Part shown: positions 12,305 to 57,156 of the stretch, piece after piece | Numbering within the stretch: position 1 is the first letter of the stretch | Layout of the letters: each line of letters opens with the position of its first letter | Source: Chitinophagales bacterium | Lineage (GTDB): Bacteria > Bacteroidota > Bacteroidia > Chitinophagales > JADIYW01 | Direction: 5' to 3' | Assembly: GCA_023957215.1 (NCBI GenBank) | Contig: JAMLHH010000006.1 | Span: forward strand, 1 to 64,000 | DNA length: 64,000 nt | Notes under the pieces: generated by a model | What the model was told of the DNA's origin: nothing | The model's input: the letters and a program-made list of their open reading frames with translations, nothing else | Database searches by the model: none | Made by a program: the position numbers and the translations under genes

Positions 12305-13339
12305 CTATGCTGCATACTGAATATCTCTGTGTTTAAAATATTTCATTACTCTTTGCGGACTGACTGATAGCATTTCCATATGGTTTTGTACATTATTTTG
12401 TAGCGTTTCCTTGTTCTTTGGTGACTTTTTTGCTGACATTCCCTGTTTCAGATCACAGTTCAGATATTCGTCAGGATTACGTTCAGGAGAATAAGAAGGC
12501 AGATAGTATAATGCAATCTTTTCTTTGTTTCTCTCAACCCATTCCTTAACGATTTTACTGTGATGAACCCGAAGATTGTCCAATATCAAATAGACCATTC
12601 TTCGATTTGCCTTAATGAGTTGTGTCATAAATTCAATCAACCTATCGGCATTCATAGACTCGGAGTATATCATAAAATGGACTTTACCCTGATTGTTGAC
12701 TGCCGACACCATATTTACCGAAAAACGTTTGGACATACTCTTTTTCACAGGTGTTTTCCCCTTAGGTGCATAACTTCTGCCGTGATTACACTGGTTTTTG
12801 ATTCCGGTCTCATCGCCCCAGAAAATTTCAGCATCTTCTTCTTTAGCTTGTTTCTTGATAGCAGGGTATTGCTCATCTAACCATTTTTGGACTTTCTTCG
12901 GGCATTGTTCGTAAGCTTGCTTCTTTGGCTTTTGAGGGGTAAAACCCCACTTCCTCAAGTAAACGCCCATGGCACTGATAGAAATAACTATCCCAAATTC
13001 TCTTTCAACCAATTCTTTGACTGCTTTTCTTGTCCATAAAGCATAATCAAGTTTTAACTGCTCTGGCATTTTATCAATAATCATCTTCTGTATTTGCCGT
13101 TCTACCTTTGAGGATAGTAGTTTTCTGTCCTCAGACCTCGCTCCACGCTTTCCGGAATGAAGACCCTTTACTCCTTTGCTCTTATATTTCTTGCTCCAAT
13201 CGTTTAGAGTATTAGGACGCAGGCATAGTTTTTCACAAACAGCCTTCTGAGACATTCCTGATTCAATAAGGCGCATAGCGGATTTTCGTATGCCAAGTAT
13301 TTCTTGTTCGTCGAGTTTTCGTAAATCAAGTTTTTCCAT
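12305..13339 (-). CDS. IS630-family transposase (DDE)
   Basis: The 344-residue transposase has an N-terminal helix-turn-helix domain (SGMSQKAVCEKLCLRPNTLNDW), a second winged-helix region and a DDE catalytic core. The core residues are D176 (IFWGDETG), D254 (LILDNLRVHH) and E291 (SPERNPDEYLN), with family-typical spacing. ATG 13339 is chosen over a TTG two codons upstream. The -7 element at 13343-13350 ends only 3 bp before this ATG, which suggests leaderless translation and low expression. The gene appears undamaged. Confidence 0.93.
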   Translation of the reverse strand: MEKLDLRKLDEQEILGIRKSAMRLIESGMSQKAVCEKLCLRPNTLNDWSKKYKSKGVKGLHSGKRGARSEDRKLLSSKVERQIQKMIIDKMPEQLKLDYALWTRKAVKELVEREFGIVISISAMGVYLRKWGFTPQKPKKQAYEQCPKKVQKWLDEQYPAIKKQAKEEDAEIFWGDETGIKNQCNHGRSYAPKGKTPVKKSMSKRFSVNMVSAVNNQGKVHFMIYSESMNADRLIEFMTQLIKANRRMVYLILDNLRVHHSKIVKEWVERNKEKIALYYLPSYSPERNPDEYLNCDLKQGMSAKKSPKNKETLQNNVQNHMEMLSVSPQRVMKYFKHRDIQYAA

Positions 13340-13342
13340 GCA

Positions 13343-13350
13343 CAAATATA
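13343..13350 (-). promoter_or_regulatory. -7 element of the IS630 transposase gene
   Basis: TATATTTG on the minus strand is a perfect TANNTTTG match, 3 bp upstream of the transposase ATG and just inside the right inverted repeat. Confidence 0.5.
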
Positions 13351-27075: not shown

Positions 27076-28698
27076 TTAAAAATTTCTCTTGACCAATGGA
27101 AAATGAGTTTCAACGAATGATCGTTTGGAAATCTTTAAGACAGGAACTGATTGATGCCTTTTAAATTCTGCTCGTCTGACTAAACCGATAATTTTTTTTA
27201 CTGTTTCTGTATCGTATCCGTGTAACAAAATTTGCTCCTCGCTCAAATTATTTTCAATATATAGACATAGTACTTCGTCCAAAATGTCATAAGGTGGCAA
27301 GGAGTCACTATCTTTTTGATTTGGACTAAGCTCAGCAGATGGGCTTTTGACAAGAATGTGATGCGGTATGATTTCTTGCTCTCTGTTGATATATTTACAA
27401 AGTTCGTATATCTGCGTTTTATACAAATCCGCTATTGCTGCCAATGCTCCACACGTATCACCATAGAGTGTGCCATAGCCGACAGCAACTTCACTTTTGT
27501 TAGACGAATTGAGTACAATGTGCGAGAGCTTATTGGATATTGCCATTAATAAAACACCTCTGATACGAGCCTGTAAATTTTCTTCTGTAACATCTTGCTT
27601 TTTACCTTCAAAAATAGGAGCAAGAGTATTGTTGAAAGTTTCAAAAGTAGAGTGTATAGGTACAATTTGATGAGGAGAGTTTAAATTTTTGACCAAGTCC
27701 AAGGCATCTTTGACAGAGTGGTCACTTGAATATTCAGATGGCATCAAAACGGATAAAACATTCTCAGCACCCAAAGCTTTGACAGCCAAAACCAAGACCA
27801 AAGCAGAATCAACTCCTCCCGATAAACCTAAAACAGCCTTTCTAAATCCTGATTTGAGGAAAAAATCTTTAATACCCAAAACCAAAGCATCATGTACCAA
27901 TGCAATATTTTCTACCGGTTGGAGATTTTCGTTATTCCCCGATTTAGAAATTTTCTCTAAGTCAAAGATTCTGATTTCTTCTTTGAAAAAACTCATCTCC
28001 TCAAAAATAGCACCATCTGCATTAACGACCATAGAACCACCATCAAAAATAATAGGAACTTGTGCACCATAAGTATTGCAATAAAAAACAGGCAACTTAT
28101 TTTCTACTGCTAATCTTTTGATATAGTTTCTCTTTTCGCGATAACTGTCTTGTTCAAAAGGTGTGGCACTTATGTTTAAAATAAAATCCGGTTTCATATT
28201 TAAGATTTTATTGATTTCACTACTATCACTAAGTAGAATGTTTTTACGATCATCGCCAATGTGTAAAAGAAACTTTTTGCCTTTGTATTGTATCAACTTG
28301 GTGGTATTGGTAGAGGAATAGTATTCTTTTTCATTAAAAACTTCTCTCTTAGAAAGATGTATCTTATGTACAATTTGTTGAATATCACCATCTGCAATAA
28401 AATAGGCAGAATTATAAGGCTTGTCTTTCGCCAAAGTATTTGTATTCGGCGCACCTACTACAACAGCTAATTTATTTTTGGTGTAATCTGCAATCTTTTC
28501 TACAAATTGAAATGAACGGGCTACAAATTCACTATAATGATTCAAATCATAAGAAGGATATCCACAAACCGACATTTCGGGAAACAAAAGAATGTCAGCT
28601 TGTTGTTTATAGGCTGTATCAATGGCAGACTTTATTTGTGCCAAATTACCTTCAAAATCTCCTATAATATAATTCTGTTGTGCGATTCCGATTTTCAT
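27076..28698 (-). CDS. nadE: NAD+ synthase with N-terminal glutaminase domain lacking its catalytic Cys
   Basis: NadE makes NAD+ from deamido-NAD+. The 540-residue protein has the two-domain, glutamine-using layout: a nitrilase-like domain (about 1-265) and an NAD synthase domain with the ATP loop GLSGGVDSAL (SGGVDS 293-298). In the first domain Glu41 (FPEM) and Lys112 (KIHL) are kept. The nucleophile position, normally in an ICED motif, reads IGDD: codon GGC gives Gly148. Glutamine hydrolysis should therefore be lost and the enzyme may depend on free ammonia. The frame is intact and the synthase domain looks normal. Confidence 0.93.
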   Translation of the reverse strand: MKIGIAQQNYIIGDFEGNLAQIKSAIDTAYKQQADILLFPEMSVCGYPSYDLNHYSEFVARSFQFVEKIADYTKNKLAVVVGAPNTNTLAKDKPYNSAYFIADGDIQQIVHKIHLSKREVFNEKEYYSSTNTTKLIQYKGKKFLLHIGDDRKNILLSDSSEINKILNMKPDFILNISATPFEQDSYREKRNYIKRLAVENKLPVFYCNTYGAQVPIIFDGGSMVVNADGAIFEEMSFFKEEIRIFDLEKISKSGNNENLQPVENIALVHDALVLGIKDFFLKSGFRKAVLGLSGGVDSALVLVLAVKALGAENVLSVLMPSEYSSDHSVKDALDLVKNLNSPHQIVPIHSTFETFNNTLAPIFEGKKQDVTEENLQARIRGVLLMAISNKLSHIVLNSSNKSEVAVGYGTLYGDTCGALAAIADLYKTQIYELCKYINREQEIIPHHILVKSPSAELSPNQKDSDSLPPYDILDEVLCLYIENNLSEEQILLHGYDTETVKKIIGLVRRAEFKRHQSVPVLKISKRSFVETHFPLVKRNF

Positions 28699-55444: not shown

Positions 55445-57156
55445 TTAATCATTCATTAAAAAGACTTTCCCTTCATAAGCTTGAAAGCTCTTTCGATTTG
55501 TTTTTAAATGGGTTGAAAGTATGACTTCACCGTTGATAGTTGGTGATTCTATTGAAGATTTTGACATATTGAGAACGATCAGATATTTGTGACCTTCTAA
55601 AATTCTGTAAAAAGCAAAAACCTTTTGATTGCATAAACTTTCAGCGATTTCGAGTTGCCCTTTTTGTAAGGCGGGAGTATGATTTCTGAGAAATAGAATC
55701 TTTTTATAGAAATTGTATTGAGAATTAGCGTCTGCTTTTTGTGTTTCAACGTTGATTTGTGGGTAGTTTTCTGCTATCGGCAGCCAAGGTTTTGCATTTT
55801 TATCGCAAAAACCAGCATTGGGTAGGTTGCTCCAAAGCATAGGCGTTCTACATTCATCTCTATTTAAAATTTCTACTGATTTATTAACCAAAACTGAGGG
55901 AAGCCATTTGTTTGTTACAGGTCTTTACCGTCTTTCAAAAGGTATGATGACTCTCGGAATACCTAACTCTTTTTCTCCAAAATAGGTAAAAGGTATGCCA
56001 CGAGATGTAAATTGGTACATGGCTAAAAGTTTTGCTTTCTCCACATTTCCTCCCAAGCGTGAAATAATACGATTCCTGTCGTGATTACCAAAAACAAGTG
56101 TAGGTATCAAAGGGTCTGCAAAGTACTTTTCAAAGGTCTCTGTCATTTCTTTATATTTCTTCGCCTTAAACGGCATTGAAATAGCATTAAACATAAAAAC
56201 AGCATGTAATCCGTTTTCCCCCTTATAAGTACAAAACTGGCGAAGGGTACTTTCATGCCCATGTGATTCTCCTATCAAGACTCTTTTGGGATGGTCAAAT
56301 TCATCTATGACAGCTCTTAATTCTGTCGCAAAACCAAAACTTTCTTCTTGGAGGAAATTATTTTCCAACTTTTGAAAGAAAATGGTCAAAGACTTATCCG
56401 AAGGTGTTAAATGTGGGCTGGAGGGATTGTTCTTTAAAAGAGGATCTTCATATATGGCGCTGATAATGTTCGTCCTAAATCCATCGACTCCTTTGTCTAA
56501 CCAAAATCTGGCTATGTCAAACATGGCTTTTTGACATCAGGATTTCTATAATTCAAATCCGGCTGAAAGGGGAGAAAGCCGTTGTAATAAAACTGTTTGC
56601 GACTTTCGTGATAAGTCCACGCCCAATTGCCTGACATCGCCCGCCAGTTATTGGGTCTTTTTAACCCGTTTTTCCCTTTCCCGTCTTTCCATATATACCA
56701 GTCAGCCTTGGGATTGTCACGTGAAGATGCAGATTCTTTAAACCATGTATGTTCGTCAGAAGTATGGTTCATTACCAAGTCAAAAACCAATTTCATATTT
56801 CTTTTATGCACTTCCGACAAAAGCTTGTCAAAAGTTTCCATTGTGCCGTACTGCTCAGAAACTTTGGTGTAATTACTGACATCGTAACCAAAGTCTTTTT
56901 GAGGACTTTCTGTATAAGGTGAAATCCAAATCGTCTCATATCCCAAGTCTTGAAGATAATCTAATTTGTCTATCACGCCCTGCAAATCGCCAATACCATC
57001 TCCGTCGGTATCTAACCATGAACGGGGATAAATCTGATAAACGGTCGTTGTTCGCCACCATTCTTCATTGAAGTCATTTGCATTCAAAACTTCTTCTTTA
57101 TTCCTTGCTAATAAATTTAGAAAGAACAAAAGAATAATTATAAAAATCGACTTCAT
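55445..57156 (-). pseudogene. GH13 alpha-glucosidase/oligo-1,6-glucosidase-like pseudogene
   Basis: The locus (about 570 codons, signal peptide at the N-terminus) still reads as a GH13 enzyme: VYQIYPRSWLDTDGDGIGDL, GYETIWISPYTESPQ, VMNHTSDEHTWF, GNHDRNRI and RDECRTPMLW. Three lesions are visible. (1) A one-base loss in a run of A (T-run 56528-56532 on the plus strand) shifts the frame after NPDVKK. (2) An in-frame TAA at 55925-55927 follows IPFERR. (3) The nucleophile Asp of DGFRxD is Asn (AAC, 56468-56470). The acid Glu (IGESHG) and HD motif remain. Decay looks real and fairly recent. Confidence 0.88.

Follow-up and report, generated by a model that had tools for sequence, protein, structure and literature searches.

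The analysed stretch of DNA, hereafter called the window, is 64 kb long and carries on its minus strand the nadE gene described here, whose product joins a glutaminase-like domain to an NAD+ synthase domain. The following features were assigned, each with its basis in brackets:

27076..28698, minus strand: nadE, fused glutaminase-like and NAD+ synthase protein of 540 aa, stop codon included (ORF call, Pfam and NCBIfam)
27949..28698, minus strand: nitrilase-like glutaminase domain without its nucleophile, residues 1-250 (Pfam CN_hydrolase match at residues 2-247; alignments)
28576..28578, minus strand: Glu41, kept (sequence and alignment)
28363..28365, minus strand: Lys112, kept (sequence and alignment)
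28255..28257, minus strand: Gly148, encoded by GGC, where the catalytic Cys would stand (alignments and codon read)
28219..28254, minus strand: shortened loop just behind the lost Cys, residues 149-160 (gap relative to Cys-bearing relatives; model confidence low)
27079..27915, minus strand: NAD+ synthase domain with intact motifs, residues 262-540 (Pfam NAD_synthase match at residues 271-516; alignments)

A gene on the plus strand of 27076-28698 was rejected, as that frame holds many stops. Elsewhere in the window, three successive minus-strand ORFs at 55445-57156 hold the parts of one alpha-amylase-like protein (by eye), a split that points to frameshifts or sequence errors, and a transposase-like ORF, IS630-like by eye, lies at 12305-13345 on the same strand.

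In a profile search, the protein scored 586.6 bits with NCBIfam NF010588 (cut-off 479), which identifies it as an NAD+ synthase of full length. Together with the Pfam NAD_synthase match and the SGGVDS motif, which is present in the synthase domain, this score bears out the original prediction that the synthase domain is complete. The best solved relatives by sequence were 5kha and 4f4h, and Glu41 and Lys112 of the window NadE aligned in both. The original prediction had also held these two residues to be conserved, and they were found in 349 (Glu41) and 348 (Lys112) of 352 alignment rows. At the nucleophile position, the ICED Cys of 5kha, 4f4h and 3n05 fell on Gly148, and this alignment with characterised enzymes, together with the codon read, upheld the central claim that Gly, encoded by GGC, replaces the glutaminase Cys. 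The window NadE thus has a nitrilase-like domain fused to an NAD+ synthase domain and two members of the catalytic triad, Glu and Lys, and it lacks the Cys in the ICED motif that defines the fused glutamine-dependent enzymes. Its CN_hydrolase domain also sets it apart from the single-domain, ammonia-dependent NadE, which have no glutaminase domain.

The predicted structure of NadE had a mean pLDDT of 80.7. The glutaminase domain was mostly confident, with residues 111-130 less so and residues 152-158 poor; in the synthase domain, segments 400-416, 454-465 and 527-540 were poor. The top fold matches were glutamine-dependent NAD synthetases. The rmsd values to 5kha and 4f4h were high (about 14), which suggests that the two domains are placed differently relative to each other in the model, or that their placement is poorly predicted.

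We found Gly at the Cys position in all three genomes of the genus, namely the source genome (G000) and its congeners G001 and G002, whereas each of the nine other family members aligned has Cys in an ICED or VCED motif. One further genome of the family, 72% complete, gave no NadE match. The motif reads QIGN in G001 and QIGE in G002, and most of the loop behind it is also lost in both. Gly148 is not an error or a chance event, because the two congeners carry Gly as well. An error of sequencing or assembly, or a pseudogene in decay, might be suspected from the 70 contigs of the G000 assembly and from the faster change of the glutaminase domain than of the synthase domain within the genus (dN 0.286 vs 0.094 for L010/L014). 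However, three genomes agree, the frames are open, no further NadE was found and the gene is under purifying selection, and we therefore give this explanation practically no weight. At the sequence level, the substitution of the NadE Cys by Gly was confirmed as real.

A full NAD_synthase match occurs once in each of these genomes. Further PF02540 matches in them were rejected as a second NadE; they were short PP-loop matches, and the ones inspected were MnmA-, GuaA- and AsnB-like by eye. The search for a second nadE that the original prediction had proposed thus found none in G000.

The question of how widely the nucleophile is lost was addressed with 349 distinct fused NadE, comprising the window protein and 348 loci, two of them partial, in which the NadE ORFs were chosen by BLAST. 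Cys was present in 323 of them. The remaining 26 comprised 19 with Gly, two with Leu, one with Ala and four aligned to Asp (L222-L224 and L227), for which the alignment at the nucleophile column is of little certainty. These counts come from a non-random sample: 20 loci were taken mainly for their short frames, and 13 of these lack Cys, compared with 12 of the other 328 loci. The Cys-less rows include the window genus, L104 from a genome titled as a Bacteroidales MAG, and L112, whose title names water buffalo rumen, with four relatives; further rows are L159, L248, L314, L326 and several clades from the order of the L112 genome. The loss is patchy around L104 and L112: both family relatives of L104 keep Cys, and in the family of the L112 genome L158 and L160-L162 keep it. 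With regard to individual loci, the match at L159, where Cys is replaced by Ala, contains one in-frame TAA. At L163:1489-2247 and L164:1483-2166, a Gly-type glutaminase domain of about 225-228 aa stands alone, with no synthase domain attached, and the respective genomes (G455 and G459) each contain, at another place, weak fragments of a long gene resembling nadE.

A synthase-domain tree of 105 rows (26 Cys-less and 79 Cys-bearing) required at least eight changes between Cys and other residues, a minimum that is approximate, as it comes from one quick tree with weakly supported deep branches. Placing all 26 Cys-less rows in one clade was disfavoured (log-likelihood lower by 85.66, AU p 0.024), and so is a single origin of the loss. 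If Gly arose with a chance of 1/7 per event, at least six Gly in eight events would be expected with P = 0.00018, a value that presupposes equally likely one-base changes and depends on numbers of events left unfixed by the tree. One thought on why Gly dominates is that it may relieve a strained backbone at the nucleophile elbow.

The glutaminase domain left behind is altered and nevertheless constrained. The aligned stretch 148-170 contains 10-31 residues in Cys-less rows and at least 22 (median 27) in Cys rows, and 22 of the 26 Cys-less rows fall below the shortest Cys row. Where dS is unsaturated, dN in the dead domain is well under dS (for example, 0.025 vs 0.43 for L231/L226), and the domain thus stays under purifying selection. 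Relative to the synthase domain, it often changes faster in Cys-less pairs; the dN ratio of glutaminase to synthase domain was 1.27-3.37 in 12 Cys-less pairs and 0.78-2.9 in 9 Cys-bearing pairs, and because these ranges overlap, the faster change is no proof of lost activity.

The possibility that the domain is still active with a different nucleophile, such as Cys45 or another side chain, draws on the conservation of Glu41 and Lys112 and on the presence of Cys45 in 20 of the 26 Cys-less rows. Cys45 is no compensation for the lost nucleophile, however, because it is also Cys in 215 of the 323 Cys-bearing rows, and the pocket is surrounded by shortened or remodelled loops. Cys207, which like Cys45 occurs in many Cys-bearing relatives, was not favoured as a replacement either, and Cys416, Cys434 and Cys478 were set aside, all lying in the synthase domain. 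With no evident replacement among these five residues, we found no conserved Cys elsewhere at the active site that would speak against the original prediction, and we judge a substitute nucleophile to be very unlikely.

Glutamine-dependent NAD synthases need the glutaminase Cys for the release of ammonia. We consider it likely that the window NadE is an ammonia-only NAD+ synthase that keeps a dead glutaminase domain. Its loss of the nucleophile is genus-wide, recurs in related lineages and belongs to a wider amidotransferase pattern in G000. In this mechanism, the synthase domain would adenylate NaAD and take free NH3 in place of channelled, glutamine-derived ammonia; no glutamyl thioester would form in the nitrilase-like domain, because the nucleophile is Gly, and the domain may be retained as a scaffold, either structural or bearing the tunnel. 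The original prediction had offered two options, free ammonia or a second glutaminase that feeds NadE. The evidence favours the first, because the Cys is gone in three genomes, the loop behind it is shortened and one NadE was found in each genome. Use of ammonia by the window NadE is also predicted from the precedents of human NADSYN1 C175Y, human NadE and CPS1. In the available text on NADSYN1 C175Y, function with glutamine is almost wholly lost, and activity with ammonia is near-wild-type according to the discussion, whereas the results describe ammonia-dependent activity as significantly reduced for all variants tested (PMC10866660). The kcat/Km given for human NadE in the accessible part of the source is 0.45 with glutamine and 0.49 with ammonia (PMC6946656). 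Human CPS1 has Ser294 in place of Cys, keeps the dead domain and uses free ammonia; the same text, as far as it is accessible, adds that glutamine use can also be abolished by factors other than the Cys and that other changes may contribute in CPS1 (PMC4655335).

The second option, in which the ammonia comes from a protein docked on NadE or close to it, be it a separate glutaminase subunit of the nitrilase type or a general glutaminase, would have a counterpart in the two-subunit NadE types C and R described in the accessible text of a survey of NadE types (PMC3376133). G000 and each congener indeed contain three further CN-hydrolases whose nucleophile is intact. However, those of G000 read by eye as a carbamoylputrescine-amidase-like protein, an acetyltransferase-like fusion and an omega-amidase-like protein, none of them like a NadE glutaminase subunit, and none adjoins nadE in the window; supply by a separate glutaminase is thus improbable, and free ammonia remains the favoured nitrogen source.

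When G000 was searched for class-I GATase domains, seven matches were obtained. Four have the G-x-C-x-G nucleophile motif: three lie on contig C21 (CarA, GuaA and PyrG), and the fourth, on C13, resembles TrpG/PabA by eye. The motif is absent in CarA2, PyrG2 and GuaA2. These three and a GuaA from the genome of L104 are listed below:

L421:8537-9637, contig C6: CarA2, Cys to Gly; HPE reads LPI
L417:571-2196, contig C67: PyrG2, Cys to Gly; His is Arg
L418:532-2058, contig C35: GuaA2, Cys to Glu; HPE kept
L424:812-2341, G449 (the genome of L104): GuaA, Cys to Gly; the only GuaA-like match of the search in this genome

For CarA2, the intact CarA of C21 was preferred as the reference to the E. coli chain, which shows Ser at the Cys position and which we take to be an engineered mutant. 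CarA2 is flanked by carB2 on one side and by an L17-like ribosomal protein gene (by eye) on the other. The adjoining CarB2 (L421:5698-8511) has 937 aa, and its NCBIfam match stops at position 925 of 1058, indicating that the C-terminal part is missing. GuaA2 shares 57-58% identity with its intact counterparts in G001 and G002 and 47% with the C21 copy, and its downstream neighbour is similar to that of the intact guaA in the two congeners. The multi-enzyme pattern is not general, because GuaA of G001, G002 and G448 keeps Cys although the NadE of all three lacks it; in these genomes and in G449, the comparison beyond NadE covered GuaA, and the pattern as a whole concerns NadE and class-I GATases.

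The intact copies lie largely together. The C21 cluster (L420:9804-19631) contains purC-like, purF, guaA and pyrG genes, followed by carB-like and carA genes near the contig end (purC and carB by eye). Its glutaminase motifs are intact where checked, and it forms a second, glutamine-dependent set of nucleotide enzymes. C21 is not an obvious contaminant, because its ABC transporter is 78-80% identical to the counterpart in G001 and G002 and its G+C content is similar (0.377 in the cluster and 0.36 in the window).

The frame of the original prediction, a single NadE, was thus too narrow, as nucleophile loss is seen again in other lineages and extends to further amidotransferase copies in G000. 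The stronger finding is this wider pattern, in which the NadE nucleophile was lost repeatedly and copies of several enzymes in a single genome lack theirs. We infer a physiological pattern rather than drift, and tentatively propose a genome-level reversion of the nitrogen donor in some Bacteroidota, a reading we hold to be possible but less than probable: NadE, CarA, PyrG and GuaA copies without a nucleophile, mostly with Gly, would run on free ammonia, a separate set would remain glutamine-dependent, and the cell would have ammonia and glutamine versions of nucleotide synthesis side by side, their use following the supply of nitrogen or giving protection from glutamine antimetabolites. Selection by such antimetabolites alone (DON, azaserine and acivicin, which alkylate the nucleophile), and not by ammonia supply, would fit the finding that several families with only this chemistry in common are affected in one genome, and the M. 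tuberculosis enzyme structure 3dla, titled as DON-bound. It is nonetheless unlikely, as the intact CarA, PyrG, GuaA, PurF and TrpG/PabA-like protein of G000 would remain sensitive. A search of the open-licence literature for nitrogen-linked duplicate amidotransferases in Bacteroides found none.

These observations bear on how amidotransferases are read. The survey of NadE types, in its accessible text, treats fused enzymes as glutamine-utilizing, rejects fission and does not mention loss of the Cys (PMC3376133), and we found no published report of NadE nucleophile loss in the open-licence literature. In the present set, fused NadE appear to revert several times by loss of the active site with the domain kept. 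The NCBIfam labels of the Cys-less CarA2, PyrG2 and GuaA2 still read 'glutamine-hydrolyzing', and metabolic models would therefore give these enzymes the wrong donor of nitrogen. A joint reversion of several enzymes in a single genome would make it possible to test under which conditions glutamine, and not ammonia, pays as a donor.

Among known systems, the window NadE shares domain order, length, Glu and Lys, and a complete synthase domain with the fused glutamine-dependent NAD+ synthetases of the ~540-aa kind (NF010588; 5kha and 4f4h). In contrast to their Cys and full loop, it has Gly and a shortened loop, and the defining glutaminase chemistry is predicted to be lost. Like the single-domain, ammonia-dependent type N NadE, it is predicted to use free ammonia; type N has no glutaminase domain, whereas the window NadE retains a constrained one. 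The same residue is lost in human NADSYN1 C175Y and in M. tuberculosis NadE C176A, for which structures have been solved; the former is a disease allele and the latter a laboratory mutant, and neither is a fixed natural state, unlike the window NadE. Human CPS1 follows the same principle, with the nucleophile replaced (Ser294), the dead glutaminase domain retained and ammonia used, according to the accessible text (PMC4655335). It is another enzyme of another GATase class, and its bacterial cousin in G000, CarA2, has Cys replaced by Gly.
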